Part shown: piece after piece, positions 6,085 to 28,599 of the stretch
Numbering within the stretch: the stretch's first letter is position 1
Layout: each line of letters starts with the position of its first letter
IMG/VR virus record: IMGVR_UViG_3300035701_000095
Span: 1 to 40,695 of that record
Reading direction: 5' to 3' (one strand)
Source: a virus
Length of the DNA stretch: 40,695 nt
Position numbers and translations under genes: made by a program
The notes under the pieces: generated by a model
Database searches by the model: none
Seen by the model: only the letters and a program-made list of their open reading frames with translations
Told to the model about the DNA's origin: nothing

Positions 6085-6110
6085 GGCAGCAACTCCTTTC
6101 TTCTCTTCTA

Positions 6111-6139: not shown

Positions 6140-6214
6140 CAATTTTTTATTATTTTTTTCTTATACCGTATTAAAAGATTATTAATTATATTTAATGGTA
6201 GGAGGAGAAGTCAA

Positions 6215-8059: not shown

Positions 8060-8062
8060 TCA

Positions 8063-10628: not shown

Positions 10629-10796
10629 ATGACACCAAAACGGATGGCAAAAGCAATGGAAATCGCCGATCGGCTGCTTCTGGAGCTGCAGAAACGTAAC
10701 AAACGGGTCCGGTATTCACTCGATCTTACTGGTGATATTCCGGTGCTCACTCTGTCATGTCCAAAAATCCCGTTGCGCGGGAGGGGGCTAAAATGA
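10629..10796 (+). CDS. Small hypothetical protein preceding the sigma-like gene
   Basis: 55 aa, a short gene. A GGGAGG ribosome binding site lies eight bases before the ATG. The N-terminus is basic and amphipathic (MTPKRMAKAMEIADRLLLEL), followed by QKRNKRVRYSLDLTGDIPVL. It ends in an ATGA overlap with the sigma-like gene, so the two are translationally coupled. No family is recognised. The coupling suggests it works with, or tunes the amount of, the sigma-like protein. Confidence 0.6.
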   Translation: MTPKRMAKAMEIADRLLLELQKRNKRVRYSLDLTGDIPVLTLSCPKIPLRGRGLK

Positions 10797-12827: not shown

Positions 12828-14282
12828 TTACCTCTTTGTCAATCTGTTGAACGATTCCTTAGTCGAAGAATATGTCGGTTGATTTGTTGCCGTGTCTCGT
12901 GATTCATGTGTCATCATTGACACATCGTTGTCCATGGATTTGGTATCGGCGCCCGCAACGAACGGATGGTTGCCGCTGCTGTCCGTGCTCATCATCAGTC
13001 CCGCGTCAACGCTGCCCTGCGCTGGTCCAACGGTGAATTCGTCATCCGGGATCATATTGAAGCGGTTCTGGAAATAATTCGGTGTGAACTTGACGCCGCA
13101 CTGGGTCAGGTATTGCGCCATTTGTGCGTCATCCACGGTTGGTGCCGGCGTGTCGATCATTTTGAAAACGGGCCGGATATCGCTTGACGCATAGTTGAGC
13201 TCATAGATCCATGATATCAGTGTGTTGAATACGTTCTCGATGATTTGCTTATCGCCATTCACGATGTCGCCGCGGACGTGTTCATGTACTTTACCAAGTG
13301 CGAATGAGCCGGCCCCTGATGCAGGTGCTTTCGTTGTGAGAGTCTGGCCTAATATGCCTATGGCGATTTCTTCGTTCATATGCTCGACGAACTGGTTGAA
13401 GATATCACCGGATGCCGTTTTGTTGACGTCGACGGTTTCGATTTTGAACTCGGACGGGTAAGCGACGACGCCGTCTTGCACGGTCTTATCCAGCATGTCA
13501 AGCATCTCCATGACACGCGCAGCCTGCGTACCCAACGGATATTCGGCTTTGATCCAAGGCTGTCCGAACTTCTCTGCAAACTCGGTCCAAAAGCGCAATC
13601 CCGCATGGCGGAACTTGACAGGCCAGTATACCACGGATCCCAGTGGCCGGCCATAAGGCCTCTCATATGATGCGCGAAACCGTGCCATGATGAACTTGTA
13701 ATTCGGGATTGGTTCGCCGGTAACCATATTCCTCTTTGTAAGATAGCGCCCTTCGTTCAAATCAGAAAATCGAAACCAGTCACAGTCCTTTGGCGCAATC
13801 TCCTTTGGCAAGAGGTTGCCTCCGACTTTCTCCCATATAATTTCGATTGGCAGATAACCGAAGAACACGCTGTATAATATTTCGTGGAGAATTTCCATCA
13901 TGGGCATGCCGGTGAGTATTGCATTGATGGTTTGGTATTGCCGGACGGCGCAATTATTTCTGTCCAGAGTCCATTTGAGTGACAGAGTGCCAGCGAAGCG
14001 TGACTCCAGACAGCCGTTCACATGGCTATCCTCAAGCAGGTATTTGTATTCCGCGATATCCTTGTTGAGCTTTCGCAGGGTCTCGGAAGGGTTGGGCAGG
14101 AAGCCCAGCACACGGTAATATGACCATGCGGTTTCACGGATCGCGATTTCCTGTTTCAACATGGCTTTGCTGTTGACCTGCTCTGATAATAGTTGATCGG
14201 GCTCATAAAAATTCATTGAGCCGCCTGAGGCCAATGGCATCTTGACAAAGCGCTGTGGCCGGAACATTTTATTTCTTCCCAT
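12828..14282 (-). CDS. Portal protein, Mu gp29 (DUF935) family
   Basis: 484 aa, close to the usual size of about 500. Family features: the DIAEYKYLLEDSHVNGCLESR block near residue 75-95, LSLKWTLDR, HEILYSVFFGYLPIEIIWEK, the RFSDLNEGRYL region, and the FGQPWIKAEYPLG and GILGQTLTTKA motifs of DUF935. The protein forms the dodecameric ring at one head vertex through which DNA enters. It is encoded downstream of the large terminase, as expected. The last about 70 residues are Ser/Thr/Asp-rich and look disordered. Confidence 0.9.
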   Translation of the reverse strand: MGRNKMFRPQRFVKMPLASGGSMNFYEPDQLLSEQVNSKAMLKQEIAIRETAWSYYRVLGFLPNPSETLRKLNKDIAEYKYLLEDSHVNGCLESRFAGTLSLKWTLDRNNCAVRQYQTINAILTGMPMMEILHEILYSVFFGYLPIEIIWEKVGGNLLPKEIAPKDCDWFRFSDLNEGRYLTKRNMVTGEPIPNYKFIMARFRASYERPYGRPLGSVVYWPVKFRHAGLRFWTEFAEKFGQPWIKAEYPLGTQAARVMEMLDMLDKTVQDGVVAYPSEFKIETVDVNKTASGDIFNQFVEHMNEEIAIGILGQTLTTKAPASGAGSFALGKVHEHVRGDIVNGDKQIIENVFNTLISWIYELNYASSDIRPVFKMIDTPAPTVDDAQMAQYLTQCGVKFTPNYFQNRFNMIPDDEFTVGPAQGSVDAGLMMSTDSSGNHPFVAGADTKSMDNDVSMMTHESRDTATNQPTYSSTKESFNRLTKR

Positions 14283-14297
14283 AGTATTTACTCCTTT

Positions 14298-14622
14298 TTA
14301 TATACGCATTTGAAAAATAGAACCAGTATCGGATTCGTCGTTGCTGTACATATTTGTTTTTATGCACACTGCAACGACGGTCCCATCGTAGGCCAGCGTT
14401 TCACCAACTGCTGCGCTTTTGGATAGCCATACCACAGTGCCACTGCCATGCGCGTACACGGCAATGTCTCCTCGCGCGCAATCCAGTACCAATATACCCA
14501 CGGGAGATCCCGTGGTGGATAAACCGTTATCGTTGGCACATACAACAGATCCCGCGGAAATGTCAATGGCGGCGCGTAAGATAGTGTTAAATGTTTGTCT
14601 ATAAAAAAAACTCGGTTTTCAT
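14298..14622 (-). pseudogene. Capsid decoration-like gene broken at a T8 tract
   Basis: On the minus strand, ATG at 14622 reads MKTEFFL then TAG within 24 nt. Removing one T from the T8 run (14603-14610 on the plus strand, as A8) gives a continuous 107-aa frame: MKTEFFYRQTFNTILRAAID, then SAGSVVCANDNGL..., AVGETLAYDGTVVAV and ending SIFQMRI. This resembles the decoration-like domains at 17402 and 20716 in length and in its Gly-rich turns. GGTG lies upstream of the ATG. The break may be a real loss, a sequencing or assembly indel, or slippage on T8. If translated only from the GTG at 14501, a 67-aa fragment results. Confidence 0.6.
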
Positions 14623-14627
14623 ATTTT

Positions 14628-15977
14628 TCACCAGAAGTTGGTTGTGACTTTTTCAGACTTATTTGTTCTTGGGTTGAATGCTACATCATGGTATGATCCA
14701 ATGTCGGATTCGATGGGATCATGCACTACACGTTTACTTAGGATAGACCGGTAATTCTGTGCGACCAATGGCACTGAACCGCTCAGGTAGATCAGACCTT
14801 GTGTCGAGGAATCCACGATGTCGTCGTTTTCGCCTGCCGGGAAGAGCGAGTGCTGATCGATAAATTGTTTGTTCCATTTTCCTTTAAGTAATTGCACCCT
14901 TCCCCTTTCGACTAAAGGGGTTATGGAGATGGCCCGGGATACTTTATCCTTGTCGGATTTGAACGGGAATACCGGCAGTGTGGTCTTCTGGAACATTTGG
15001 ATCAGGCTACTGCCGGATGCTTTGTCCTCTATAACAATCATATCCGGAGTATATCGATCGTATATACTTTGGGTGCGATCGATCAGATCTGGGAAGTTCC
15101 AATGGCCCACATAACAATCCGCGCAGATGAATTTGTCTTCGATCGTTTGCAGCCAATAGGTGATGGCCGAATAGTCTGCGGTGTCGGTATCTTTGAATGC
15201 GGTATCCGCCGACAGGATTTTCCGTTTGATCTTAAAGGCCTCAGGTAGCGCTTCAATGAATACCCACCAAGCTTCTTTAAACAGTTCGTCCGTGCCGATG
15301 TTGACGAACTGCGCGTTGATTTCTTGTTCCCGGATGGCCGCGGGGATTTCCTCTTCGAGATGTTTGATGTCGTCGGCCTTCAGAAACGGGTTGGCATAGC
15401 TGGTAACCTGATATGATTTGTATTCGTCGCTTATTTCGCAGCCCTTTTTCCAGAATGTAAAGAATAAATGTTCGGTGCCCTTCTTGTTCAGCTTGCCTTT
15501 TGGTGTGCCGACCATTACGACTTTTTCACAATAGTCAAGTGTCATGGGCGCCAAGGTGTTATACCAGAGCGCGTCACCGGGGAGGAAGATGATGCCGGCT
15601 TCATTACAAATGATAATGTGGTACGCGAAGCCTTCGATGTTCTCCGGTCGCTCTGCCGAGCGCATGACCATCAGGCCCTGCAGCAGGTGCAGTTCTTTTT
15701 TCTGCTCATTCCATTTCCAGTATTGAGATTTAATCTGTGAAATAATTGGCAGGAAATACCGGTCCCAGTATGCGCTCAGGTTGGCTTGGATGGTGTCGAC
15801 CCATAATATGCTCTTGCCTTCGAGAAGCTTTTCGATCACGAAATTTACGGCGCCGGTTGTGCCCCCCGCCCGCCTGCCCTTGGCGAACAGGACGATCTTA
15901 TGCGGATCCTCGAAGACCGTTTCCTGGATTGGCGTAATGGTGAGCTGCAGTGGCTCCCCGGTTTTGGTGATCTCCAT
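14628..15977 (-). CDS. terL: Terminase large subunit
   Basis: 449 aa. ATPase domain: Walker A KGRRAGGTTG (33-42, an unusual but known terminase form), Walker B IIICNEA (121-127), and the coupling motif VGTPKG (156-161). Nuclease domain: LSADTAF (D258), IVIEDKASG (E317, D318) and NDDIVDS (D385/D386), the three acidic clusters of the RNase H-like fold. It pumps DNA into the prohead through the portal and cuts it. It starts directly after the small subunit stop (TAA then ATG). Both lie at the head of the minus-strand cluster, opposite to the rest of the virion genes. Confidence 0.92.
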   Translation of the reverse strand: MEITKTGEPLQLTITPIQETVFEDPHKIVLFAKGRRAGGTTGAVNFVIEKLLEGKSILWVDTIQANLSAYWDRYFLPIISQIKSQYWKWNEQKKELHLLQGLMVMRSAERPENIEGFAYHIIICNEAGIIFLPGDALWYNTLAPMTLDYCEKVVMVGTPKGKLNKKGTEHLFFTFWKKGCEISDEYKSYQVTSYANPFLKADDIKHLEEEIPAAIREQEINAQFVNIGTDELFKEAWWVFIEALPEAFKIKRKILSADTAFKDTDTADYSAITYWLQTIEDKFICADCYVGHWNFPDLIDRTQSIYDRYTPDMIVIEDKASGSSLIQMFQKTTLPVFPFKSDKDKVSRAISITPLVERGRVQLLKGKWNKQFIDQHSLFPAGENDDIVDSSTQGLIYLSGSVPLVAQNYRSILSKRVVHDPIESDIGSYHDVAFNPRTNKSEKVTTNFW

Positions 15978-16346
15978 TTACTCAGCAGCCTTGGTTCCGA
16001 CGATGTTTTTGACGATGTTGACCGCGATCTGCCCGGACACACCTACGCTACCGCCAAGGTTAAGAGAAGCTTCTTTTGGTTGCCATCTATCTGACAGCCT
16101 GTTCTCCAACCAATATTTTATGCAGGGCCAATCGCCAGACGCGATTCGGTCCTTCAATTTGCTCTCAACCTTGTCATCAAACGAGGCTTCCACGTCTTCA
16201 CATTGCTGTTTGAACCACGGATCATTGCGCCGCCATTGTCCGTAAGTTGTTCTGCTAATTGGAGTTCTGACGCATGCGTTAGAAATATTGCAGCATTCCT
16301 CGGCATAAAAACGTAGAAAGTTCTCTTTCTTGGGGTTAATTCGCAT
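15978..16346 (-). CDS. terS: Terminase small subunit (putative)
   Basis: 122 aa. The N-terminus has the helix-turn-helix-like pattern of small terminases: NFLRFYAEECCNISNACVRT ... ISRTTYGQWRRNDPWFKQ, followed by an acidic helix (DVEASFDDKVESKL). It would recognise the packaging site and bring in the large subunit. AGGAG lies upstream of the ATG at 16346, and the large subunit follows without a gap. The call rests on this pattern and on position. Confidence 0.78.
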   Translation of the reverse strand: MRINPKKENFLRFYAEECCNISNACVRTPISRTTYGQWRRNDPWFKQQCEDVEASFDDKVESKLKDRIASGDWPCIKYWLENRLSDRWQPKEASLNLGGSVGVSGQIAVNIVKNIVGTKAAE

Positions 16347-16462: not shown

Positions 16463-17401
16463 TTGCCATTCAAAACGGAACATTCGGTCCGAGTTAAGCA
16501 GCCGAAGGGGTATTCCAGGTACAGACGGAAGAATCTTACGAGAGGTGTTGACGCTATCCTTGGGTTTAAAAAGGGCGGTGGATCTGAGATTCAAGCCCTC
16601 CGTTTTGATAAAGAAAAGTTCACGCCTGAAGAAGCCGCGGCTTGGGCGAAGAAACATGGGCACACTGGATCACTGCATCCGGCCCAAAAGTCTGATAACA
16701 TGTCGGTAGCTGATGTGAGTGTACGCATGCCGGTCAAAAACATATCAGTGAAATACGGCAACCAACCCGGGGCCGTAGGGGAAGGCACGATGCCCGAGAT
16801 GGGGCAGGCTGGTCCCGGGCAAGGCATGGGTTACATTAAGTTTCCGCCTGACGCCGGTCCGAAGCATATCAGTCTGGAGCCTAATGCAGTTACCTACGGT
16901 GAGCTCCACAATCCACAACTCGACATTCCGGCCGGCACGGCCGTTGGTGTTGTCCGGTCAATGCCCAGACCAGTTGTTGCCGATCCTAAATCATCTCTCA
17001 CTGACATCGAAACCAAGCAGAAACAAGTTCCCACGAGCCAAGACATTCATACCCTTGAGTCGGTCGAAGAGCAGAAGGACCTTTCGGGAATCACCTACGG
17101 GACCGCCGCGTATCCATATGACGTGATCACGCGTAAGCCGATGTATGGGCTGCAGCGTTCGATACCAACATCGTATGCAGAGGCCGGTAGTTCCGGGTTG
17201 GACGAAGATCCGGAGTGGGACGATATCCTTGATTTGGTGACTGACAAAGACATTGATGGCGATGAATTTCTTATTGGCGCAAAGCACGAGCTCGAGCATA
17301 CCGATGATCGGAACAAAGCTGCGAAAGTCGCACTCGATCACCTGATAGAAATACCCGATTATTATTCTCGTTTGTTAAAGGCCTTTCCAGAGGAGAAATA
17401 A
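16463..17401 (+). CDS. Head-region protein with C-terminal DUF5661-like domain
   Basis: 312 aa starting at TTG 16463, six bases after AGGGG; no ATG fits. The N-terminal part has SEIQALRFDKEKFTPEEAAA and WAKKHGH, a motif seen in phage prohead or capsid-associated proteins. The middle is Gly/Pro-rich and probably flexible. The C-terminal 60 residues (FLIGAKHELEHTDDRNKAAK then ALDHLIEIPDYY) match DUF5661, a small helical domain of unknown function. The decoration gene follows with no gap. Likely a minor head or maturation protein. Confidence 0.6.
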   Translation: MPFKTEHSVRVKQPKGYSRYRRKNLTRGVDAILGFKKGGGSEIQALRFDKEKFTPEEAAAWAKKHGHTGSLHPAQKSDNMSVADVSVRMPVKNISVKYGNQPGAVGEGTMPEMGQAGPGQGMGYIKFPPDAGPKHISLEPNAVTYGELHNPQLDIPAGTAVGVVRSMPRPVVADPKSSLTDIETKQKQVPTSQDIHTLESVEEQKDLSGITYGTAAYPYDVITRKPMYGLQRSIPTSYAEAGSSGLDEDPEWDDILDLVTDKDIDGDEFLIGAKHELEHTDDRNKAAKVALDHLIEIPDYYSRLLKAFPEEK

Positions 17402-18178
17402 ATGGCGTCCCAAGAAATGTATTTTGCCGAAACTTTTCGCTCGAAGCAGGATCTCGCGGGTATTTCGCAGAGATTTGTGGTTATAGATTCGACGGGTCGC
17501 ATATCTCTGGCAACAGCTGGATCATATGCCGAAGGAATTCTCGAAAACACGCCGACACCTGGTGATATGCCGGGGGTCGTATCGTTTTTGGGCATCACGA
17601 AAATTACGGTTGATGGCGCTTACCCAATAGGAACTTTTATTGTGCCGACGACGAACGGCGTTGGTACGCAGGCCACATACATCACATATCCATATGTACG
17701 TGGCAAATTGCTCGAGGCTTCGGACGCGTCTGGCGACATTGTGACAATGCGCTTTATAGATGAGGTTGTGGGATCAGGGTTGACCGGTGTGATGGGACCA
17801 CAGGGATCCACGGGTGTGGGTTACACTGGAGTTGCAGGTGCCACAGGTCTACAGGGTGCTGTTGGGCAAACCGGAGCGTTTGGACAGACCGGATTGCAGG
17901 GTGCCATTGGTGGAACTGGAGTTGCAGGTCAGACTGGAGTTGCAGGTGCTGTTGGCGAAACCGGAGTTGCAGGTCAAACTGGAGTTGCAGGCGCTGTTGG
18001 CGGAACCGGAGTTGCAGGCGCTGTTGGAGGAACCGGAGTTGCTGGCGCTGTTGGGGGAACCGGAGTTGCTGGTCAGACCGGAATTCAGGGTGAGACTGGG
18101 TTGACAGGTAATACTGGAGTTCAAGGGGAGACCGGGTTGATGGGTAATACTGGAGTTCAAGGGGAGACTGGAATATAA
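17402..18178 (+). CDS. Capsid decoration-like protein with C-terminal collagen-like tail
   Basis: 258 aa. Residues 1-about 126 resemble the decoration-like protein at 20716: [20 protein letters not shown] here against [20 protein letters not shown] there, then YLGVTKLTVD / [10 protein letters not shown]. Residues about 128-258 are Gly-X-Y triplets ([16 protein letters not shown] and so on), Thr-rich at Y and without a C-terminal cap: the collagen run ends at the stop codon. The likely product is a capsid-surface protein carrying a collagen-like fibre. AGAGGAG lies six bases before the ATG. The DNA of the tail is a minisatellite, so length can change. Confidence 0.7.
17981..18175 (+). repeat. 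Minisatellite encoding the collagen-like tail of the decoration protein
   Basis: Three consecutive 27-bp units begin at GGAGTTGC (17981, 18008, 18035) and run to 18061, each encoding GVAGAVGGT-type triplets; related units start at 17918, 17936, 17963 and 18062. From about 18091 a 36-bp unit (starting GAGACTGGGTTGACAGG) is repeated to the stop. All periods are multiples of 9, so gain or loss of a unit keeps the frame. Confidence 0.8.
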
Positions 18179-18182
18179 CCCC

Positions 18183-20696
18183 ATGAAACAGCTGGTGTTT
18201 ATACGACATGGTGACACCGAGCTGAATGATGAACATAAGATTCGCGCTTGGACCGATGTTCCCCTGAATGTAAAGGGTCAGGAGCAAGCAAAAAAAGTCG
18301 GAGAAACGCTGAAACACAGCTCTATCGACTTGATATACAGTAGTGATCTGGATCGCGCACATAGCACGGCAGATGCAATAAATCTTGCAACTGAAACTCC
18401 GGTGGTAATAGATCCGGACATGCGGCCTTGGAATCTTGGAGTTTTTACCGGTCATCCGCAGGAAGAAGTGGCAAAACTGCTGCCGGCATTTTTGGATGAG
18501 CCCTTTAAAGATATAGATGGAGGAGAATCGTTTAATACATTCCGGAACCGCTTTCTCGGCAAGATTGATCAGCTGATGAACACGTATCCGGACAAAACGC
18601 TCGCGATAGTGGCCCATCACAGGAATGACCGGGCGTTGCGGGCGTGGGAAGCGGCGGGCTTTCCGAGTGATTTAAGTGTTGACCCGAAAGTGTTTCTTGA
18701 CAAAGGCATAGTTGAACCGGGGGACCATTACGTCATGACAATTGAAAAGAACAAGAATTTTACAGAAGATCATGCCGAGTACAAGGTTGAATCGGCAGAA
18801 CTGCTTGCCAAGAAACCACAAACCACGGTGGCCATGGGTGTGGGAATCGCGGCTGATCGGGCATTGACTGATCTGCCCCCGCACAACATTAAGCAGGATG
18901 TACGTGGCGAATTGATGATGAAGCGTGACGAGCCGATTTTTAACGAGACTGACGATGAGGATGACGACGAACTCAAGGACGGAGATTGGGTTTCCGCGTT
19001 TCGGTCCGGTTTGCATACCGATAGCGATGGTGTTGCCCATTTATGGGAAGTGCCGGATTTACAGATAATAGCGCAGCAATATAATAAAGCCGTTGAGCCG
19101 GGTAATCCCGAGCGGCATGTGGCGCCGGTTGTGCTTGGTCATCCGAAGGATGATTCGCCGGCGTACGGGTGGATCAGCAAAGCCAAAGCGGTCGGCGATA
19201 AACTGTATCTCAAACTTTCAGAGATGCAACCTGAATTCGTGGATGCTTTGAAACGAGGGCTTTACAAAACGAGATCAATATCTCTTTATCCGGATTTGAA
19301 CATCCGTCATATTGGATTTCTCGGCGGCTCGGTGCCGGCCGTGAAGGGTCTTGGTCCGTTCAAATTTGCGGAGACAAAAGAATATAAAACCTACGAATTT
19401 GAGGAGAAAACCATGGTCGATGTGAATGAGCTTAAACAGGAAAACACATTTTTCAAAAGGCTTTTCTCGCTTTTCAAGATCGATGTGGATAAGGTTCGAG
19501 ACTTCAAGGAAGGCACATCGAGCACCATTCAAACCGCGGATCAACCCGTACCCTATAAGACAATTGACAATAAATATCCACAAGGAGCGACCATGGCTGA
19601 ATCAATGATAAAGCCCGCCGATCATATGAAATATGCGAAGAGTTATCTCGATAAAATGAAATCGCATATGGATGCGGCAGGTGCGAACGAAGGCAAGCCC
19701 GACATCGGCACGGCCGTTGCCGGGGAAACGGGGCAGGACATTTCATCGCATAAAGAGTCCGCGACCGAATTTGGCCGGCTTGCGATGCATCACATGAGCC
19801 AGGCGTGCGAGCATATGTATGCCGTACTGGGCGGACAGGCCACGGCGTCCAGCAATGCGCCCATGGACCATAAAGAGTCCGAAGTAAAGCCCGAGGAGAA
19901 AAAGGTTGAGGAAAAGTCAGCAGAAAAGCCTGCAGATCATGCCGAGCCTATTCCTCCGTCCAGCAAAAGTATTGACGCGTTAACGCATAAAGAACTCCTG
20001 CACGCTGCTTCTCATTATATGGGATTGGCGCAGGGCAGTGGTACGGACCATTGCAAAATGTACGAACATTTATCAAAGGTGTTTGCACACCTGGAGAAGG
20101 CCATCGTGAGCGGAAATTTTGTTGAAACCAAACAGATCCCGATTTTGGACATTAAGGCCGACAAGGATAAGATCACGGAGCTTGAGAAAGAAATATCCAT
20201 GCTGAAGGAAGAATGCAAAAAGCTTCAGCTTGAAAACGAAAAATTACTGGCCGCGCAGGCCCAGAAACAGGAGCAACAGGCTATGGGTTCTTACAAAGAA
20301 TTTTGCGAATCGCTCGTCGCAGAAGGCCGTCTGCGTCCTGTCGATGTCGAGGCAACGGTCACCAATCTCAAGGCCCGGGAAGAGATGAGCAAAAAGGAAA
20401 CAGCCGATTTCTCGGAAGGCAAGACAACAGTCCAGCCGACACGGGATTTCGTCGAAGAATATAAGAATTACCTCAGTGCTATGCCGAAGGTGGTGGAGAT
20501 GTCCGAGTTGATCACGGGCAGAGCGCCAGTCACGCAGACACCGGTCGATCAGGCCGTTGACTTTGTGGAAGCAGAGATCAAGAAACTGCAGGCGGCGAAA
20601 CCCAATCTCCCCTATCACGAGGCTTTACAGATAGTCAATGAACAGGCTCCCGATAAAGTCCGGTCTTATGTTGAGGCCGGCTTTGAGAGCAAATAA
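18183..20696 (+). CDS. Histidine phosphatase-like / Mu gpI-like protease / scaffold fusion
   Basis: 837 aa in one open frame. Residues 1-190 are a histidine phosphatase-like domain: FIRHGDTE (R8, H9), SSDLDRAHSTADAI (R58), and VAHH (H145). The acidic residue normally seen as Arg-Glu before the loop LG is replaced by Pro (RPWNLG, 81-86), so it may be inactive or altered. About 255-400 match Mu gpI-type prohead protease: dG-x-AHLWEVPDLQIIAQQYN, VVLGHPKDDSPAYGW (320 His), and RSISLYP (about 364-370). From 411 on is a scaffold-like region with a coiled coil (ELEKEISMLKEECKKLQLEN). It overlies two strong internal starts. It lies just before decoration and major capsid genes, the gpI position. Confidence 0.8.
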   Translation: MKQLVFIRHGDTELNDEHKIRAWTDVPLNVKGQEQAKKVGETLKHSSIDLIYSSDLDRAHSTADAINLATETPVVIDPDMRPWNLGVFTGHPQEEVAKLLPAFLDEPFKDIDGGESFNTFRNRFLGKIDQLMNTYPDKTLAIVAHHRNDRALRAWEAAGFPSDLSVDPKVFLDKGIVEPGDHYVMTIEKNKNFTEDHAEYKVESAELLAKKPQTTVAMGVGIAADRALTDLPPHNIKQDVRGELMMKRDEPIFNETDDEDDDELKDGDWVSAFRSGLHTDSDGVAHLWEVPDLQIIAQQYNKAVEPGNPERHVAPVVLGHPKDDSPAYGWISKAKAVGDKLYLKLSEMQPEFVDALKRGLYKTRSISLYPDLNIRHIGFLGGSVPAVKGLGPFKFAETKEYKTYEFEEKTMVDVNELKQENTFFKRLFSLFKIDVDKVRDFKEGTSSTIQTADQPVPYKTIDNKYPQGATMAESMIKPADHMKYAKSYLDKMKSHMDAAGANEGKPDIGTAVAGETGQDISSHKESATEFGRLAMHHMSQACEHMYAVLGGQATASSNAPMDHKESEVKPEEKKVEEKSAEKPADHAEPIPPSSKSIDALTHKELLHAASHYMGLAQGSGTDHCKMYEHLSKVFAHLEKAIVSGNFVETKQIPILDIKADKDKITELEKEISMLKEECKKLQLENEKLLAAQAQKQEQQAMGSYKEFCESLVAEGRLRPVDVEATVTNLKAREEMSKKETADFSEGKTTVQPTRDFVEEYKNYLSAMPKVVEMSELITGRAPVTQTPVDQAVDFVEAEIKKLQAAKPNLPYHEALQIVNEQAPDKVRSYVEAGFESK
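19413..20696 (+). CDS. Internal in-frame start: putative scaffold protein (427 aa)
   Basis: The ATG at 19413 (residue 411 of the fusion, MVDVNELKQE) is preceded by GAGGAG with six bases between, a strong ribosome binding site inside a gene. In Mu (genes I and Z) and lambda (C and Nu3) the scaffold is made from such an internal start in the protease gene. The protein from here is highly charged, with the coiled coil at about residues 660-700 of the fusion, as expected for a scaffold. Assignment rests on this parallel. Confidence 0.6.
   Translation: MVDVNELKQENTFFKRLFSLFKIDVDKVRDFKEGTSSTIQTADQPVPYKTIDNKYPQGATMAESMIKPADHMKYAKSYLDKMKSHMDAAGANEGKPDIGTAVAGETGQDISSHKESATEFGRLAMHHMSQACEHMYAVLGGQATASSNAPMDHKESEVKPEEKKVEEKSAEKPADHAEPIPPSSKSIDALTHKELLHAASHYMGLAQGSGTDHCKMYEHLSKVFAHLEKAIVSGNFVETKQIPILDIKADKDKITELEKEISMLKEECKKLQLENEKLLAAQAQKQEQQAMGSYKEFCESLVAEGRLRPVDVEATVTNLKAREEMSKKETADFSEGKTTVQPTRDFVEEYKNYLSAMPKVVEMSELITGRAPVTQTPVDQAVDFVEAEIKKLQAAKPNLPYHEALQIVNEQAPDKVRSYVEAGFESK
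19593..20696 (+). CDS. Second internal in-frame start: shorter scaffold (367 aa)
   Basis: AAGGAG (19582-19587) lies five bases before the ATG at 19593 (residue 471 of the fusion, MAESMIKPADHMKYAKSYLD). This would give a nested product lacking the first 60 residues of the longer scaffold. It may be the main scaffold start, or both may be used at different rates. Confidence 0.5.
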   Translation: MAESMIKPADHMKYAKSYLDKMKSHMDAAGANEGKPDIGTAVAGETGQDISSHKESATEFGRLAMHHMSQACEHMYAVLGGQATASSNAPMDHKESEVKPEEKKVEEKSAEKPADHAEPIPPSSKSIDALTHKELLHAASHYMGLAQGSGTDHCKMYEHLSKVFAHLEKAIVSGNFVETKQIPILDIKADKDKITELEKEISMLKEECKKLQLENEKLLAAQAQKQEQQAMGSYKEFCESLVAEGRLRPVDVEATVTNLKAREEMSKKETADFSEGKTTVQPTRDFVEEYKNYLSAMPKVVEMSELITGRAPVTQTPVDQAVDFVEAEIKKLQAAKPNLPYHEALQIVNEQAPDKVRSYVEAGFESK

Positions 20697-20715
20697 CCTT
20701 TAAGGAGAATTACAC

Positions 20716-21096
20716 ATGGCTGCACAGCTAAATTATCAGGCAGAATCATATCCGAGTGCGATTGATCTGTCGTCGGTAACGACGCCGTTATTCATGTCGT
20801 TGGACAGCACGGGCCGTGCAACGATCTGCAGTGCGTCGTCATACGCCGAGGGCATTCTCGAGAATGCGCCCCCTATCGCAAATGTTGCAACGATCAGTTA
20901 TCTGGGTGTGACCAAGTTGACGGTCGACGCTGCGTATGCACGCGGTACGTTTTTGATGTCCGGCGCCACAGGGATCGGAACGCAAGGATCCACCGGGGTG
21001 GGCGGGTATTCGCCTTTTACGCGGGCGGTAACGCTTGAAGATAGTTCCGCATCCGGTAACATCATCACCGTGCGTCTTGTCGACAGCAACAGGTAA
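20716..21096 (+). CDS. Capsid decoration-like protein
   Basis: 126 aa, Gly/Ala/Thr-rich and probably all beta. It shares the layout and several stretches with the first half of the 17402 protein ([20 protein letters not shown], then YLGVTKLTVDAAYARGTFL). It ends with the common TLEDSSASGNIITVRLVD. In other phages small proteins of this kind trim the capsid surface as trimers and lie just before the major capsid gene. A good AAGGAG precedes the ATG. Only a single GTQGSTGVGG hints at the collagen repeat. Confidence 0.65.
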   Translation: MAAQLNYQAESYPSAIDLSSVTTPLFMSLDSTGRATICSASSYAEGILENAPPIANVATISYLGVTKLTVDAAYARGTFLMSGATGIGTQGSTGVGGYSPFTRAVTLEDSSASGNIITVRLVDSNR

Positions 21097-21166
21097 ACAA
21101 AACCAGGATTACCGGGTCGCTAATCACCGATAATCTTTCAATTCAGATTGGCACAGGAGTTTACAC

Positions 21167-22201
21167 ATGAGTTTTCCATCTTCTTCCAGTATTCTGATAC
21201 GCGGCGCGTTGCAGAATGTCAGTGTATTGTACAGGAACGCCTCGTACATCGCCGATAGTATCTTCCCGCTTATCAACGGTCTGAATTACCAGACCAAAGT
21301 TCTTAAGTACGTGAAACATCCTTGGTTCGAATTGACCGAGAATGGATATCGGGCGGAGAATGCAACGGCAAACCGCGTGGACATGAAAGTCACGACACAG
21401 AATCTTGACCCACGCGAAATCGCGTTCGGTTCGGTCGTGTCTGACGAATTGTTTTTCGCGTCGAACCAACCCGGAAACCTGCCGGTACAACCGATTTCGG
21501 ATGCCATCCTTCTTATCTCTGATAAGATTGATCGGTTCCGCGAGAAGCTTGTTGCCGATACGATTTTCGGAACCAGCGACAAGTATCCGTCAATCACATG
21601 GGCGGATGGTGCGGTGGGCGGAACAGCGCCGCATGGTGGAGCCGGTGCGTGGGCATCGGATACCACGGCGAATTCATTGATCTACGATGTGCTCAATGCG
21701 CAGACCACGATCCTGAAGTCAACCGGCATGCTGCCGAACGTCCTTGAAATGGACTTCAACACATACCAGGCGATCAAGATCAATGCGACCGCGCAAGGTG
21801 GAATCTTTGACAGGATCAAGTACACACAGACGGCCGGCCCGGCCCAGATGACGGAAGGGCTGCTTGCCAGTTTGCTGGGTCTTGATCAGGTTATCGTCGG
21901 TAAAGCAATTTACACGACGGAGAAAGAGACTGCGGCGGGAACAATGACGAGTCCCCAGTTTATTTGGGATCCGTCCTCGACTGGAAAAGCCCTGTTGTTC
22001 TACCGGCCCGCTGCGGCAGGACTCAAACAGGTGTCGCCAGGGTACCAATATCGCGTGGCCTATGACGGGGCGACATGGAGACGGTTAATAAGTTACCGGG
22101 AAGAGTGGCAGCACCACAGCGTTTACGAAGTGAGCGAGTGGGTCGATATAGCGCCAGTTTCGACTGACGTTGGCTACCTTTTCACACGGACGTACGCATA
22201 A
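21167..22201 (+). CDS. Major capsid protein
   Basis: 344 aa, a normal size for an HK97-fold capsid protein. It follows protease/scaffold and decoration genes and precedes gp36, the Mu gpT position. Features: an N-terminal arm, TTQNLDPREIAFGSVVSDEL, a long spine-helix-like ISDKIDRFREKLVADTIFG, the P-domain region with NVLEMDFNTYQAIK, and a C-terminal VAYDGATWRRLISYREEWQH. CAGGAG precedes the ATG. Call is supported by position and general pattern; the exact family was not identified. Confidence 0.8.
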   Translation: MSFPSSSSILIRGALQNVSVLYRNASYIADSIFPLINGLNYQTKVLKYVKHPWFELTENGYRAENATANRVDMKVTTQNLDPREIAFGSVVSDELFFASNQPGNLPVQPISDAILLISDKIDRFREKLVADTIFGTSDKYPSITWADGAVGGTAPHGGAGAWASDTTANSLIYDVLNAQTTILKSTGMLPNVLEMDFNTYQAIKINATAQGGIFDRIKYTQTAGPAQMTEGLLASLLGLDQVIVGKAIYTTEKETAAGTMTSPQFIWDPSSTGKALLFYRPAAAGLKQVSPGYQYRVAYDGATWRRLISYREEWQHHSVYEVSEWVDIAPVSTDVGYLFTRTYA

Positions 22202-22701
22202 TGGATTACTGCTCTGAAGTTGACCTGAAAAACTATTTGCCGTCTGTTTACATACAACAGTTAACGGATGACAATTTTCAGGATCATATTGACCACGAGA
22301 AAGCCGCTGATTGCATCAGACGTGCCGGCGACTTTATCGATGGTTATCTTCAGGGTAGATATCCTGTACCGGCAATTGACCCGACAACGGGGTCAGTGCC
22401 AAACCTGATCCGTGATTTATGTACCCGGATTGGGATTTATTACTTGTTCCTCCGGGGCCTGACACAAACGGTCCCGGAGGCTCTTAAAGTGGATTACGAC
22501 ATGTGCATCAGGACTCTGGTGGGCATGCAGCAGGGTAAGATTAATGCATTTACGAAGGGTTCCGAGCCGGGATTTTTTGCGACGAACAAAACAAGTGCCA
22601 GCAGGCAATTTACGACGACACCGGTTCTGCCCCCGGTGACGCCGTCGATGACATTACCAACATTAACCGGGCAGAATAACTGGGCGCAGTATCCAATATG
22701 A
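22201..22701 (+). CDS. Mu gp36-like head-tail protein (DUF1320)
   Basis: 166 aa. The family pattern is a helical N-terminal CSEVDLKNYLPSVYIQQLTD, then RAGDFIDGYLQGRYPVP, LIRDLCTRIGIYYLFLRG, and a C-terminal tail. It acts between capsid and tail in Mu-like phages. The ATG overlaps the capsid stop as TAATG. Confidence 0.85.
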   Translation: MDYCSEVDLKNYLPSVYIQQLTDDNFQDHIDHEKAADCIRRAGDFIDGYLQGRYPVPAIDPTTGSVPNLIRDLCTRIGIYYLFLRGLTQTVPEALKVDYDMCIRTLVGMQQGKINAFTKGSEPGFFATNKTSASRQFTTTPVLPPVTPSMTLPTLTGQNNWAQYPI

Positions 22702-23249
22702 TACCCGAATTGCGATCTGGGGTGGTTGATTTTCTTAAGGGTCAGGGTCTGGATGTCAAAGAGTTTGGTAGTAAAGACCTTAAGAATCGAGTTTTGAATG
22801 TCAAAAAGCCCGCGGTTAATGTGATTATAAACCGGGCGTCGGCGTCAAAAGTTACCGGTTCGATGGTTGAGACCAGATATAAATATGTAATGATTCTCAG
22901 CCTGATCATTGTGGTTGAATGGGTACCGTCTGATCCGGTTGGGGAAGCCCGGAGACGGGAAGGATCAGAAAGGATAATCGAGGCCATCGGGGACAGTCTT
23001 GTCGGGCAGAATTTCGGTTTGGCATTAGAGAATCCGTTGCTCCCGATGGGCTTTAACAATATAACGACCAGTGATTGGCAGAATGCCGGTTACATGGTTT
23101 TTCAGCAGGATTTCTGGTGCAGTTATCTTATCGCAAAGATTGATCCGGATGTCCCGTTGATTAAAAATGTTTTGCTGGAATACTTTCTGAAACCGCAGGA
23201 TCCAGCGGCAGAGCCACCTCAAGCGGAAGATTTGATTGTCGTTTCATAA
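22698..23249 (+). CDS. Mu gp37-like protein (DUF1834), tail terminator type
   Basis: 183 aa. VLNVKKPAVNVIINRASASK ... YVMILSLIIVVEWVPSDPVG fits the beta-sandwich of gp37/DUF1834; members lie between gp36 and sheath and act in tail ending and head-tail joining. The start overlaps the gp36 stop by 4 nt. The C-terminus is extended by an acidic, Pro-rich segment (PQDPAAEPPQAED). Confidence 0.78.
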   Translation: MIPELRSGVVDFLKGQGLDVKEFGSKDLKNRVLNVKKPAVNVIINRASASKVTGSMVETRYKYVMILSLIIVVEWVPSDPVGEARRREGSERIIEAIGDSLVGQNFGLALENPLLPMGFNNITTSDWQNAGYMVFQQDFWCSYLIAKIDPDVPLIKNVLLEYFLKPQDPAAEPPQAEDLIVVS

Positions 23250-23270
23250 AAGTAAACGAAGGAGACAAGC

Positions 23271-24740
23271 ATGAGTTCTCTCAACATTACAACTGACCAG
23301 ATCCCGAACACAAGGGTTCCGGGATTTTACGGCCAGGAAAATACGAATAACGCGTTGCCGGGGCTGACTCCGCTGACAGATACCCTTTGTTTGCTTGCTC
23401 AGCGGTTGTCTGGTGGTACGGTGGCCGAAAAAGTACCCACCAAGGTATTCAGCGATGCGGATGCCGCGCTGTACTTCGGTATCGGATCTATTGCTCACTT
23501 GGCGGCACGCGCTGCTTTGCTAAGCAATCCGTACATCAATTTGACCATCTGCGGCATTGACGATGCTAACGGATCGGCTCCGGCTGTTGGCTCACTGGCC
23601 ATCACGGGACCAGCGGTCACGGCGGGTCAGTTTGATCTGTGGATCGGTGATCAGCATGTGTCGATTGGAGTATCCGCTGCGGAAACAGCTCTTGATATTG
23701 CAGGGGCTCTGCAGACGGCGCTCAATTCGATCCAGCAGCTCTTACCGTTGACGTCGTCACCTTCCAGCGCGACACTCGATTTTACTGCGCGTAACGCAGG
23801 TAATCTGGGTAATCAGATTCCGATTTCGGTCAAGACGAATTCCGGCACGACATTCACGATTACGCCGATGCAGTCTGGTAGCGGGGATCCTGATGTGGGG
23901 GATTATAGCACGGTTGGAACAGTGTTGGCTGCGGTGGTTGGTGGGGCATACACGGTTTATATCAGCACTCTGCCGGATGCCTCCAATCTCGGCAAGATCA
24001 AAACCATGATCACGTATGCGTCCAACCCGGTTGAACAGATGGGTTGCATTGCAGTGCTCGGGTATACCGACATGGTCGGAAATTATGCGGCATGCGAAAC
24101 TTTAGGCGGAACAACTCTCAACAACGGCCGCATGTCACTTGCATACATTGATTATACATCAGATAATCTTGCAAAGACTGAGCCCTGGAAGATCGGTGCT
24201 GCTTATGCCGCTCAGTTGGCCAGCACACCGGATCCTGCGATTCCTTATGACGGCTTGGTGCTTGCATCGGTTGCGGCGCCTTCCGTTGTCGATCGGTTCG
24301 TGTTCACCGTCAAGGACGATTTGCTCCATAACGGTGTAGCGCCGTTGGCAGTGGTTCCCGGTGAGCAGGTTGGAATCGTTCGTGCGATCAGCACGTATAC
24401 GATCAACAGTCAATCCGTGCCTGACCCGACGTTGCTTGACATTAACACAATGCGGACTCTTGACTATGTAAGAACACAGGTCCGTACGCGCCTGACGAAT
24501 GTCTTTCAACGCTCGAAGTTGAATGCCCGGACGATGCGGCTCATGCGGTCCGAAGTTCTCGATGTTCTCACGATTCTGCAGTCCGCGGAAATCGTGCAGA
24601 ATGTGCAGAAGTATGCGGCCGGGGTTTTGGTCGAGCAGGACTTGACGGATGTCACAAGAGTTGATGTACAGATCCCGACAAATATTGTCAGCGGTCTCCA
24701 CGTTATCGGGGCCGTGTTTAATCTCATCTTAGGAGTGTAA
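23271..24740 (+). CDS. Contractile tail sheath protein (Mu gpL type)
   Basis: 489 aa. The start IPNTRVPGFYGQEN, the insertion rich in Gly/Thr/Ser around residues 90-210, LPDASNLGKIKTMITYAS and the conserved C-terminal RLTNVFQRSKLNARTMRLMR belong to the Mu gpL/sheath type. The presence of a sheath makes the virion a myovirus. GAAGGAG precedes the ATG. The tube gene follows 4 nt after its stop. Confidence 0.85.
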   Translation: MSSLNITTDQIPNTRVPGFYGQENTNNALPGLTPLTDTLCLLAQRLSGGTVAEKVPTKVFSDADAALYFGIGSIAHLAARAALLSNPYINLTICGIDDANGSAPAVGSLAITGPAVTAGQFDLWIGDQHVSIGVSAAETALDIAGALQTALNSIQQLLPLTSSPSSATLDFTARNAGNLGNQIPISVKTNSGTTFTITPMQSGSGDPDVGDYSTVGTVLAAVVGGAYTVYISTLPDASNLGKIKTMITYASNPVEQMGCIAVLGYTDMVGNYAACETLGGTTLNNGRMSLAYIDYTSDNLAKTEPWKIGAAYAAQLASTPDPAIPYDGLVLASVAAPSVVDRFVFTVKDDLLHNGVAPLAVVPGEQVGIVRAISTYTINSQSVPDPTLLDINTMRTLDYVRTQVRTRLTNVFQRSKLNARTMRLMRSEVLDVLTILQSAEIVQNVQKYAAGVLVEQDLTDVTRVDVQIPTNIVSGLHVIGAVFNLILGV

Positions 24741-24744
24741 TACC

Positions 24745-25167
24745 ATGGCACTTTACATTACCCGTGCGGCGGTATCTATCAATGGCCCCCAAGGCTCGAC
24801 GACGGTGACTGATTTCAAAGCGGTCACGGAAAAAGCTCGCACAATCCGGAAACCGGTTCACTTGATGTATAAGACTGGTGCTGCCGAGCTTACACAGAGA
24901 TACGGTGTGGAATTGGATTATGTTGTTCCCCGTGACTCTGCGGAATTCAATTTCGCGGAGGTGACCGGAGGAACACTTGTAATCGACTACACTGATCCCG
25001 AAGCCAGTGCTGTTGCACACCAAGTTACCTTTGGCGGTGTGCATTGCCACACTATTGGTGATGCGATGGTGGATGGCGAGGCCGAACTGGTCCGCAAGGT
25101 CGAATTCATTTGCGAAAGTAGAAATACGAATGACGGATCAACTCCGTCGCCTGAGCTGGGCATGTAA
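24745..25167 (+). CDS. Tail tube protein
   Basis: 140 aa, beta-rich, directly after the sheath, the Mu gpM position. TRAAVSINGPQGSTTVTDFK at the N-terminus and VRKVEFICESRN at the C-terminus fit small tube proteins. It polymerises into the inner tube. GGAG lies nine bases upstream of the ATG. The chaperone gene follows with no gap (TAA then ATG). Confidence 0.75.
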   Translation: MALYITRAAVSINGPQGSTTVTDFKAVTEKARTIRKPVHLMYKTGAAELTQRYGVELDYVVPRDSAEFNFAEVTGGTLVIDYTDPEASAVAHQVTFGGVHCHTIGDAMVDGEAELVRKVEFICESRNTNDGSTPSPELGM

Positions 25168-25683
25168 ATGAGTGATCTTCTCCAGAAATTGAAGCTGGGA
25201 ACCGATCATGTAAAGCTGCTCGATTTCCCTGGTACGCAGACGAAAGTGGCGCTGCGGGTCTTGTCACAACAGGACCTGCAACTTGCCGCTTTCGCTACGG
25301 AGCGGCTTTTCAAATCGGAGAAGATCGAATTGAACATGGCGTCGGCCAATGAATACGATCAGGAGAAGGCCACGCAGATTTTGTTTTTAGCACTGCGCGA
25401 TCCAGAACATTTGGACCAACCAGTTGCGACATCGATTACAGAATTCAGAAAGTTGCTTACCAAGGATGAGAAAGAGTTTCTGATCGATGAATACCTGACG
25501 TTCGAAAAAGATGTCAGTCCTTCACCGGAGACACTATCGGGCGATGAGTTCGATCGAGTGGTCTCTGATTTAAAAAAAAAGCCAGACTCGATTACTTCGA
25601 GCAATTTCAGTACAGCCATGCTGAAAAAGCTTATTACTACTTTGGCAAGCCAGCCTGCGCTCTTACCGCAGGACAATGGTTAG
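25168..25683 (+). CDS. Tail assembly chaperone (short form), with programmed frameshift
   Basis: 171 aa in frame 0. It lies between tube and tape measure, the position of the gpG/gpGT proteins that load on the tape measure. It is rich in charged helices (LRVLSQQDLQLAAFATERLF). It carries an A9 run at 25572-25580 where a -1 shift gives a longer product (see the 25168-25757 entry). The last 34 residues are thus replaced in the long form. Confidence 0.82.
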   Translation: MSDLLQKLKLGTDHVKLLDFPGTQTKVALRVLSQQDLQLAAFATERLFKSEKIELNMASANEYDQEKATQILFLALRDPEHLDQPVATSITEFRKLLTKDEKEFLIDEYLTFEKDVSPSPETLSGDEFDRVVSDLKKKPDSITSSNFSTAMLKKLITTLASQPALLPQDNG

Positions 25684-25757
25684 TATTGATTGAGCTCGAA
25701 GCAGCTATCCGAGACCGCGCTGAGAATCCCGATAAACAAATAATTGTGAGGACGTGA
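25168..25757 (+). CDS. Tail assembly chaperone, -1 frameshift long form (G-T like)
   Basis: The slippery heptamer A AAA AAA, reading TTA AAA AAA AAG in frame 0, lies at 25572-25578. In the -1 frame the reading stays open from there for 58 codons (starting ARLDYFEQFQYSHAEKAYYY, then FGKPACALTAGQWL...) and stops at TGA 25755-25757, which overlaps the tape-measure ATG. The long form would be about 195 aa. A frameshift joining two chaperone parts in this place is conserved across long-tailed phages; Mu itself uses a -2 shift. Confidence 0.78.
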
Positions 25758-27277
25758 TGGCCGAGCGTGAATATCAGCTGAATCTGAAATTGCTTACTGA
25801 GAACTTCAATCGAGGTATCATTCAGGCTGAATCACGTATTCGTGCTTTTACGAATAACGCGAAACGGGATTTTAATGCGCTCGGTAGAACTACAAAAACT
25901 CTGGTATCCGGGAAATGGTCAATGTTCGGTGGGGTAATTGCCGGCGCTGCTATTTATGAAACGATTAAGAAAGTCGGAGAATTTGACGATAAAGTGCGTC
26001 GGCTTGCCATTGATAGTGGGATGACTACAGCAGAGATGTTGGCCATGAAACAGCAGATCCTTGAGACCGGTATGCGTACTGGAGTGGCAACTGATGATCT
26101 CACATCCATGTCGTCTGCAGCATATAAGACCAGTAAAAACATCGGATTTGTCAAAGATGAGTTGGGATTCATGGCCAAAATTGCACAGGCCAGTGGAGCA
26201 TCTGGAGATGTCGTAGGTGCGGCCTTGGGTGAAATGCAGAGGGAATCAGGTCTTACAGGTAAAGCTTTCGAAGATATGGTCACTAAATTAGGGGCATTTG
26301 GGGCTACAAAAGGCGCTCGAATGAGCTTGGCGCAGTTTCTTCCGCATGCAGGGAGTCTTTTACAGTATGCAAAACTTCTTGCGAAAACAGGGGCTATAAA
26401 GGATATCGGTCGGGTAATGATCGAAGGAGAATTTACAGGTGCGCCGGCTGCGGTGGAAAAAGCGTATCGGACCATGTATGGCAAGGGTAAAAATTTAAAG
26501 TTGATGCATATGCTCGGGCTTAAACAAGGTGCGACTCTGGTTGACGCAGTTCAAGCTGTTTTCAAAAAGATCAAACCGGAAAAACAACAGGCGGCTTTCG
26601 CGATGTTGTTTGGTGCAAAATCGTATGCGGGTCTTGAGCCAATAATCACCAGTGTAAAAGAGCTCGCAGAAGCAGAAAAAGAAGCGGCGGGTATTGATTT
26701 CCTGGGCCGGGCGAACGAGCAATCCAAGTCTTTTTCTGCATCTATGAACCGACTTTCCGCAGCATTCATGACTATTGCAGATACTTCTTTGGCCCCTATT
26801 ATGGATGAATTATCCAAGAGCATAGCAAAAATAGATCCCGAAGCTATAAAAGCGTTTGCACAGGTTTTAGGAACTCTTGCTATTGCTGCTGTAAAAACTG
26901 CCGAAGCGATCGGGACTTTGGTGGGCTCTTTTACAAGTTATTTCGCATTAGAAGATGAAAAAAAAGCTCGAGAAGCTGCCGCAAAGACCGCGGAGATTGG
27001 TGGAAGAGGAAGTGTGATAGCACGAGCAACTGCATTAAAAAGGATGGGTAAAACGCAAGCAGCCGCAAGGGTGTTTGAAGTGGCATCAAAAACAGAGGCG
27101 GGAGAAGGACATCTCGCGTCAGCTGCCCAATTGCACAAGTTATCAGTAGCAACTGCCGCTATGCCTGAAACGCATGTCGTAGTTAATAATTATATCGACG
27201 GTAAAAAAATACCATCGGAAAAAACAGTAACCCATACAAAACGCGGTCCTCAAGGTAAAGTGACGCAACCAAAATGA
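25757..27277 (+). CDS. Tail tape measure protein
   Basis: 506 aa from the ATG at 25757, preceded by GAGG; a GTG one codon earlier is in frame. It is helical, with charged N-terminal helices (ESRIRAFTNNAKRDFNAL), two hydrophobic stretches (MFGGVIAGAAIY, about 57-68; FAQVLGTLAIAAVKTAEAIGT, quoted in part, near 370-390) and Ala/Lys-rich helices between. It sets tail length; at roughly 0.15 nm per residue the tail would be short, about 75 nm. Position after the chaperone is diagnostic. Confidence 0.85.
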   Translation: MAEREYQLNLKLLTENFNRGIIQAESRIRAFTNNAKRDFNALGRTTKTLVSGKWSMFGGVIAGAAIYETIKKVGEFDDKVRRLAIDSGMTTAEMLAMKQQILETGMRTGVATDDLTSMSSAAYKTSKNIGFVKDELGFMAKIAQASGASGDVVGAALGEMQRESGLTGKAFEDMVTKLGAFGATKGARMSLAQFLPHAGSLLQYAKLLAKTGAIKDIGRVMIEGEFTGAPAAVEKAYRTMYGKGKNLKLMHMLGLKQGATLVDAVQAVFKKIKPEKQQAAFAMLFGAKSYAGLEPIITSVKELAEAEKEAAGIDFLGRANEQSKSFSASMNRLSAAFMTIADTSLAPIMDELSKSIAKIDPEAIKAFAQVLGTLAIAAVKTAEAIGTLVGSFTSYFALEDEKKAREAAAKTAEIGGRGSVIARATALKRMGKTQAAARVFEVASKTEAGEGHLASAAQLHKLSVATAAMPETHVVVNNYIDGKKIPSEKTVTHTKRGPQGKVTQPK

Positions 27278-28599
27278 AATTATTCACCGCACGGCTTGAC
27301 GATTACTTTTTGAACATCCTTGATATCTCGGATACCGAGTCGATGTCTATTGCCGTCCATGAATTTGTTCAGACCGATGGTGCAATCCTCGATCAGCAAG
27401 GCCGGCATGCCCGGGAAGTTAAGTTCCGCGCATTTTTCTTTGCTCATGCCGTAAGACTCGGCGGGCAATATATCGATCCTACATACGGAAATCATTTCTC
27501 TTTTGTTGAGGGCATGTCGGATTCTTCGACATCCCATATACTTGTGCATCCTAAATATGGTCAGATCAGTGGTTATGTCCGATCGATGACCATTACCCAT
27601 GACGACACGCAGGACTATGTTGCCATTGATATTGATTTTGTTGAGAAAGATATTCAGACTTCCGGGTATATTGCCGATCAGAATGCCGTTGACCGGGCGA
27701 TGAATATTCAACAGGCGGATCTGCTGGATGCCCAACTTACCGCCATGAATAATGATTTGAACAGCATGGGCATGGGATCTATTCTTGGAAAGACAATCAA
27801 TGCGACTCAATCGCTTGTTGATCAGTTTAACACGGCCACCGCGGGCGTGCGCGATTTTCTCAAGAGCACGGATTCCTTTCTTAATCAAGTGGACCAGTTG
27901 GCGCACTTGGTCACGGAGCCTTTTACCACGGTAACCGGGGCTGTCGCTTTTGTCAATGATGTGCCTTCTCGTTTTATCGGGTCCATTAATTCTGCTTGCA
28001 ACCGGGTCATTGGGTCTTTTGTTGCTTTATCGAATAGCCCTGCAACCATGATGAACAACATTACAGTTAGTCTTTCCGGGTTTGTGTCCATCATCACAGG
28101 CGTCAATGCTTCTTTTTTCAAGACAAAATTTCTAACGCTTTGCGCGGGGTCCGTGGCATGGCAGACCGGACAGACATTTCAAGCTGACCAAAATAAGCGG
28201 GCGGTTCTTGCCATGCAGGAGACGAAGCCGACATTCGATCGCAAAGGCAACCGGATTGCCGCGATACAACCGATCGACGTGATGTCCGTGCAGGAGATTG
28301 AGGCCGTGCTTTATAATACCCGGCAATTAATACAGCAGGCCATCATCGCCAACCGGGAAATTCTCGGCGAAGATTCGCCGCAATTGAAACAGATGGCGGC
28401 AACGCTGGTCCAATTTACCAACAGTATCAAACTGATTTCGTTGAATCAGAAAACAGTTACGGTCAATAACATGCCGTTGCACGTTCTCCTGCAGCAGCTG
28501 GGGCTGTCGTATAACGCTGGTGACAGGATTTTAAAATTGAATCCACAGATCAGGTGCCCGAATTTCGTGGAGGGCGATGTGAGGGTGTATGTCTCTTGA
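27274..28599 (+). CDS. Mu gpN-like DNA circularisation / tail protein
   Basis: 441 aa. The N-terminal third fits the family: VHEFVQTDGAILDQQGRHAR, then FRAFFFAHAVRLGGQYIDPT and HILVHPKYGQISGYVRSMTI, where LVHP-x-x-G is the family core. Mu gpN is a tail/baseplate protein once named for DNA circularisation. It overlaps the tape measure stop by 4 nt. The remaining two thirds are helical with no motif I recognise. Confidence 0.82.
   Translation: MKLFTARLDDYFLNILDISDTESMSIAVHEFVQTDGAILDQQGRHAREVKFRAFFFAHAVRLGGQYIDPTYGNHFSFVEGMSDSSTSHILVHPKYGQISGYVRSMTITHDDTQDYVAIDIDFVEKDIQTSGYIADQNAVDRAMNIQQADLLDAQLTAMNNDLNSMGMGSILGKTINATQSLVDQFNTATAGVRDFLKSTDSFLNQVDQLAHLVTEPFTTVTGAVAFVNDVPSRFIGSINSACNRVIGSFVALSNSPATMMNNITVSLSGFVSIITGVNASFFKTKFLTLCAGSVAWQTGQTFQADQNKRAVLAMQETKPTFDRKGNRIAAIQPIDVMSVQEIEAVLYNTRQLIQQAIIANREILGEDSPQLKQMAATLVQFTNSIKLISLNQKTVTVNNMPLHVLLQQLGLSYNAGDRILKLNPQIRCPNFVEGDVRVYVS

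Follow-up and report, generated by a model that had tools for sequence, protein, structure and literature searches.

A virus-enriched histidine phosphatase domain is fused to a Mu gpI-type head maturation protease and may be a passenger of the phage head

A single gene of an uncultured phage encodes a histidine phosphatase domain, a linker, a head maturation protease of the Mu gpI type and a scaffold (Table 1). The gene is one ORF of 837 codons, as the original prediction had stated from the letters of the DNA; it opens with ATG and is free of internal stops. The window, that is, the whole stretch analysed, is a 40,695-base IMG/VR record, a contig from an uncultured metagenome. The ORF is a genuine fusion. 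The phosphatase is read here, with a slight preference, as a passenger carried by the head protease, which would be packed in the capsid, most likely released with the DNA, and would act on a small phosphorylated molecule.

Table 1. Features of the window discussed in the text, sorted by position. Protease residue numbers are alignment columns (130, 175, 186) plus 190.
Feature	Position	Strand	Basis
Mu-type portal	12828..14282	-	PF06074 E=1.2e-80
Large terminase	14628..15977	-	PF17289, phrog_38
Upstream gene with N-terminal domain and DUF5661 (inside the protease ORF in L117)	16463..17401	+	BLASTP to L117; DUF5661 E=4.3e-11
Collagen-repeat protein	17402..18178	+	Pfam Collagen E=1.7e-15; absent at the matching place in L117 and L173
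Fusion gene, 837 aa: histidine phosphatase, linker, gpI-type head maturation protease, scaffold	18183..20696	+	
Histidine phosphatase domain, residues 1-190, 'RPW' type	18183..18752	+	Pfam PF00300, AlphaFold2, Foldseek PDB
Arg8-His9, RHG motif (R8 H9 G10); His9 is the predicted phospho-acceptor	18204..18209	+	Conservation, 69 relatives
Arg58, phosphate-pocket arginine	18354..18356	+	Invariant in 69 relatives
RPWNLG, residues 81-86; Pro82 at the general-acid Glu position of PhoE/PGM/CobC	18423..18440	+	PhoE alignment; subfamily signature
His145, second catalytic histidine (VAHH)	18615..18617	+	At least 90% conserved in 69 relatives
Linker, residues 191-262	18753..18968	+	Mostly disordered by prediction (low pLDDT)
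Mu gpI-type head maturation protease core, residues 262-424	18966..19454	+	phrog_976 and Foldseek PDB
His320, predicted catalytic	19140..19142	+	Invariant in 70 relatives
Ser365, predicted nucleophile	19275..19277	+	Invariant in 70 relatives
His376, predicted third triad member (assemblin-type Ser-His-His)	19308..19310	+	Invariant in 70 relatives
AAGGAG-N5-ATG: ribosome-binding site and start of the putative nested in-frame scaffold, ATG at residue 471	19582..19595	+	Mu gpI/gpZ style
Putative separate scaffold, Met471-Lys837, 367 aa, without phosphatase or protease	19593..20696	+	Nested start
phrog_673 head gene, 126 aa	20716..21096	+	PHROG match
Major head protein	21167..22201	+	phrog_1005 E=4.9e-41

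An independent contig, L117 (IMGVR 3300044470_000148), carries the fusion as well. Its ORF, 940 aa long, runs in one frame from an N-terminal domain through phosphatase, DUF5661, linker and protease to the scaffold. Linker motifs and the stretch YKTRSISLYPDLNIRHIGFLGG are common to L117 and the window; the protease cores are 65% identical, versus 45% for the phosphatases. The gene order round the fusion also agrees, terminase and portal being divergent from the protease. GC content is even across the phosphatase-protease junction of the window (48.1, 50.5 and 47.3%). A join of two separate genes at assembly, which the metagenomic origin of the contig brings to mind, is very unlikely because of the L117 fusion, the agreeing gene order and the even GC at the junction, and is given practically no weight. 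Met245/246 was considered as an alternative protease start that would leave out the phosphatase; no clear ribosome-binding site is found there and the Met is not kept in L117.

The predicted phosphatase identity of the first 190 residues is borne out by a strong match. Pfam His_Phos_1 matches residues 4-152 (E=5.7e-37; 127.7 bits, cut-off 21.7). The AlphaFold2 model of residues 1-200, built with 69 sequences in the alignment, has a mean pLDDT of 92.8 and a pTM of 0.89; its Foldseek matches in the PDB are phosphoglycerate mutases, PhoE, CobC and PspA at E about 1e-14 to 1e-13, the best TM (0.80) being to the phosphoserine phosphatase 4ij6. The RHG motif, the second pocket Arg, the second His and the fold of branch 1 of the histidine phosphatase superfamily are all present. 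The general-acid Glu of the L-[RN]-E motif, found in enzymes of the PhoE/CobC/dPGM type, is absent. In the alignment to Bacillus PhoE, MRPWNLG of the window protein stands over LREIHLG, and Pro82 replaces this Glu, as predicted. The domain is not placed among the PhoE/CobC/dPGM enzymes because of this Pro82. All NCBIfam equivalog cut-offs are missed; phrog_12933 is matched at E=3e-23.

From this one residue it had been proposed that the domain may bind rather than hydrolyse. Such a pseudo-phosphatase would bind a phosphorylated ligand (nucleotide, phosphoprotein or DNA end) and regulate or position the protease in head assembly without turnover. The replacement of Glu is common to the relatives found by the RPW pattern and extends to two relatives found by other motifs, L175 (RPLNAG) and L176 (RTWNIG). 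The phosphate pocket argues the other way: in 69 diverged relatives from viruses, whose selection did not depend on these residues, His9 and Arg58 are invariant and Arg8 and His145 at least 90% conserved, whereas a pure binder could do without the nucleophile. Asn15, Arg21, Asp55 and Glu115 are likewise at least 90% conserved. Phosphohistidine phosphatases of the SixA type are active without this Glu. The domain is moreover found on portals and as separate genes, a poor fit to a regulator of the protease. Asp55 and His146 are candidates for the residue that stands in for the acid. The conserved phosphate pocket fits a working enzyme at least as well as a binder; binding without turnover is considered unlikely, and with the usual general acid missing activity is not assured.

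Relatives were recovered by alignment of the protease core and by a DNA pattern for RPW[ND]xGx[FL][TSA]G in IMG/VR contigs; whole-protein scans of viral and genome contigs gave no relative, exact peptide patterns being too specific. The pattern matched 79 viral contigs, and in 77 of them a relative of the window domain is encoded. Only two relatives came out of 84,980 prokaryote genomes scanned by alignment. The 100% conservation of RPW is circular and is not used as evidence, because RPW stood in the search pattern. Judged from these sequences, Arg-Pro in place of Arg-Glu marks a virus-enriched subfamily and is not private to the window phage. A tblastn search of 50,697 phage records with the window domain and three diverse members returned distant histidine phosphatases only, with no subfamily member recognised, and no cultured phage with the RPW subfamily is present in the collection searched. 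Histidine phosphatases of GenBank phage records (Listeria cocktails, faecal contigs, PseuP_222) are, where read, ordinary enzymes without the RPW motif and are not shown as head-gene fusions. Short Cys-rich motifs (CSSCSMF...C, CGNCAMY...C), iron-sulfur or zinc-knuckle-like, precede the phosphatase in proteins, fused or stand-alone, of L098, L139, L157 and L161. A segment common to L176, a Thaumarchaeota MAG, and L115 (HLGFDRAGQALQAIREDVSRG / YLGFDRPGQALNALRDNLRQG) lies beside the phosphatase and is possibly an undescribed polyvalent-protein domain.

Many members of the subfamily are fused to head proteins. The phosphatase is C-terminal to a phrog_146 portal in L111, L153 and L113 (Phage_portal_3 in L111 and L153), to Phage_portal in L109 and to SU10_portal in L141; it is N-terminal to a portal-like piece in L137 and L097. 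It is N-terminal to an XkdF-type Peptidase_S78_2 protease in L107, L163, L130, L136, L142 and L098, and in L168 by PHROG. Some of these fusions are labelled 'DNA methyltransferase' (phrog_1530); the label falls on the S78_2 protease region and was set aside. The window and L117 carry it N-terminal to a gpI-type protease. The other fused members likewise match phrog_12933. Mapped on the 69-domain tree, fused and separate states change at least 10 times; the fusion counts are drawn from pattern-selected loci, and the contigs are fragments. Counted over 90 neighbours of stand-alone members, the most frequent families are head-tail adaptor, portal and terminase. The original prediction knew of no described phage head protease with such an arrangement. 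The arrangement is not unique to the window: L117 has it, the subfamily is also found on XkdF-type proteases and portals, and the fusion of Nudix to a capsid peptidase is a parallel (PMC9503650).

A placement of the domain inside the head, and not regulation of the protease, is taken as the common denominator of these fusions, because the C-termini of portals, like prohead protease-scaffolds, are on the inner side of the capsid. The phosphatase might also be active in the late-infected cell, before or without packaging; the fusion would then give late expression only, and the domain would be lost when the protease degrades itself. The late head-gene neighbourhoods of stand-alone members are consistent with this, as is the usual departure of prohead proteases from the mature head. 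Repeated fusion to portal C-termini, however, would put the domain permanently in the capsid, and co-expression needs no fusion; a purely late role is rather improbable.

The carrier of the window is a gpI-type protease with a scaffold, as predicted: PHROG 976 'head maturation protease' matches residues 262-424 (E=2.2e-55), and the model of the core has a pLDDT above 90. All top PDB matches of the core by Foldseek are herpesvirus assemblins, with a best E of only 4.5e-3 (probability 0.99, TM 0.27-0.36). The linker is conserved in L173, L117 and L179 (phmmer). The original prediction had the phosphatase possibly cleaved off during maturation; no site for a cut between it and the protease was identified. 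All seven members of the lineage that were examined have a ribosome-binding site and ATG 79-118 residues past the catalytic Ser motif; in the window, sites of the AAGGAG-N5-ATG type number 3, versus 0.37 expected. A nested scaffold is annotated in RcapMu and KS10. The conserved nested start predicts a separate scaffold without phosphatase. The phosphatase would be attached to the protease form alone, which is expected to be the less abundant one, the bulk of the scaffold coming from the nested start. The presence of the phosphatase in stoichiometric amounts, as proposed earlier, is for this reason unlikely.

The N-terminus of the protease varies within the lineage. Close relatives of the window protease are found at seven IMG/VR loci (60-75% identity). 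The phosphatase is present in L117 and absent in five further sister lineages. In L173 the protease ORF (821 aa) carries DUF5661 and no phosphatase; in L179 (L179:2820-5750, 977 aa) it carries a MuF-like domain (PF04233 E=3.6e-5, below the curated cut-off). The N-terminus of L182/L183 is the same N-terminal domain as in L117, that of L184 is the linker alone, and the L181 protease starts next to the core with almost nothing in front. Since the sister lineages carry MuF, DUF5661, another domain or almost nothing, the front end of the head protease is, on this comparison, a variable and exchangeable cargo slot in one lineage. Among 80 loci found by the protease core no N-terminal extension exceeds 91 residues and no phosphatase is nearby; these loci first suggested a fusion unique to the window, a view overturned by L117 and the lineage scan.

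The phosphatase precedes DUF5661 in L117 and follows it in the window, where the order is the gene with the N-terminal domain and DUF5661, the collagen-repeat gene and the phosphatase-protease. The product of the first of these genes is 51% identical to L117 over 98 aa and 55% over 44 aa (BLASTP). The shift in position corresponds to two insertions or to one insertion and a rearrangement, and the tree fits either; the window and L117 phosphatases as one clade are not rejected (AU p=0.34). This stretch of the window is rearranged, the phosphatase following a split of the ancestral N-terminal region and lying beside an inserted collagen-like gene. The domain could accordingly be a neutral passenger, a gene whose stop codon was lost beside the protease and whose product is trimmed off and has no role. 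The catalytic residues are nevertheless conserved, fusions of this kind have arisen many times over and L117 keeps the phosphatase at a different internal position, so that this explanation is highly improbable.

Other features of the window are as follows. The N-terminal half of the collagen-repeat protein resembles small head proteins of decoration type in L173, L173:11333-11803 for one, which suggests a head decoration protein with a collagen tail. The terminase/portal region (12828-16346) lies on the opposite strand from the protease, capsid and tail genes (16463-30000), unlike in the Mu-like phages examined; this arrangement is kept in L117 and L173. No Phage_Mu_F gene is found in the whole window; in the sister L179 the MuF-like domain is fused to the protease. 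Positions 6041-10297 and 3499-5369 encode a phage DNA polymerase, a primase-helicase, an SNF2-type helicase and an Enc34-like ssDNA-binding protein. These replication genes sit beside Mu-like head and contractile-tail genes, a mosaic of replication and structure modules. A small protein (10757-11089) has a weak match to sigma-70 region 2 (E=6e-4, below the cut-off); L173:1040-1492 looks similar.

In the preferred reading, that of a head-carried passenger, the head maturation protease is the carrier of a virus-specific histidine phosphatase. The full-length protein would be a minor prohead component, directed inside the prohead by its scaffold part. The protease would process the head and probably the linker too, and the phosphatase would end in the capsid interior. 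With the bulk of the scaffold made from the nested start, it would be a low-copy passenger. By analogy with other head-fused enzymes, it most likely enters the host together with the DNA, where it would remove phosphate from a small molecule, plausibly a nucleotide-type metabolite or a defence signal. A nucleotide-type substrate is a guess, suggested because Nudix and ADP-ribosyltransferase domains keep company with RPW members: NUDIX in L136 and L098, ART-PolyVal in L115 and ADP-ribosyltransferase in L148. The same company is that of virion-delivered effectors (PMC5512222, PMC9503650). More tentatively, RPW histidine phosphatases could be an unrecognised family of virion-packaged enzymes, carried by any inner head protein (portal C-terminus, XkdF-type or gpI-type protease) and removing phosphate, as infection begins, from a nucleotide signal or metabolite of the host, possibly against a defence system.

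Head-fused effectors are known with ADP-ribosyltransferase, Nudix, 2H and RNase domains. The RPW histidine phosphatases, nearly confined to viral contigs and repeatedly joined to inner head proteins of three kinds, would bring a further enzyme class into this arsenal, and the RPW fusions would point to a phosphorylated target in host cells. The exchangeable cargo slot at the protease N-terminus makes cargo delivery by a prohead protease directly testable. Nudix fused to MuF, portal and a capsid-processing serine peptidase has been proposed to travel in the head (PMC9503650), and virion delivery has likewise been proposed for other polyvalent proteins (PMC5512222). Histidine phosphatase and phosphoglycerate mutase are not mentioned in these two surveys of polyvalent domains. 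Among the open-access papers searched, none was found to pair 'histidine phosphatase' with 'prohead protease' or 'head maturation protease'.

Among known systems, phage Mu gpI/gpZ (phrog_976; RcapMu, KS10, B3, BcepMu) shares with the window the protease core, the invariant His-Ser-His, the nested in-frame scaffold start and the major head protein that follows. Mu-type gpI proteases start close to the core, whereas about 260 extra residues with the phosphatase stand in front in the window, and the strand opposition of terminase and portal to the protease is unlike this group. Branch 1 histidine phosphatases (PhoE, PspA, CobC, dPGM) share the fold and the catalytic motifs; the RPW subfamily differs by Pro for the general-acid Glu, by the conserved Arg21, by the GGES..F..R and HHR motifs and by its occurrence almost only in viral contigs. 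SixA phosphohistidine phosphatases are matched weakly (TIGR00249, 24.6 bits, cut-off 74.5). The family phrog_12933, matched by the window domain and other fused members, carries no annotation; its head fusions are described here. Polyvalent and head-fused effectors (PMC5512222; PMC9503650) have, like the window, an enzyme domain fused to a head protein in one ORF. L136 and L098, with Nudix and the RPW phosphatase on one protease, compare with the Nudix head fusions (PMC9503650); the window differs from these effectors in its carrier, a gpI-type protease.
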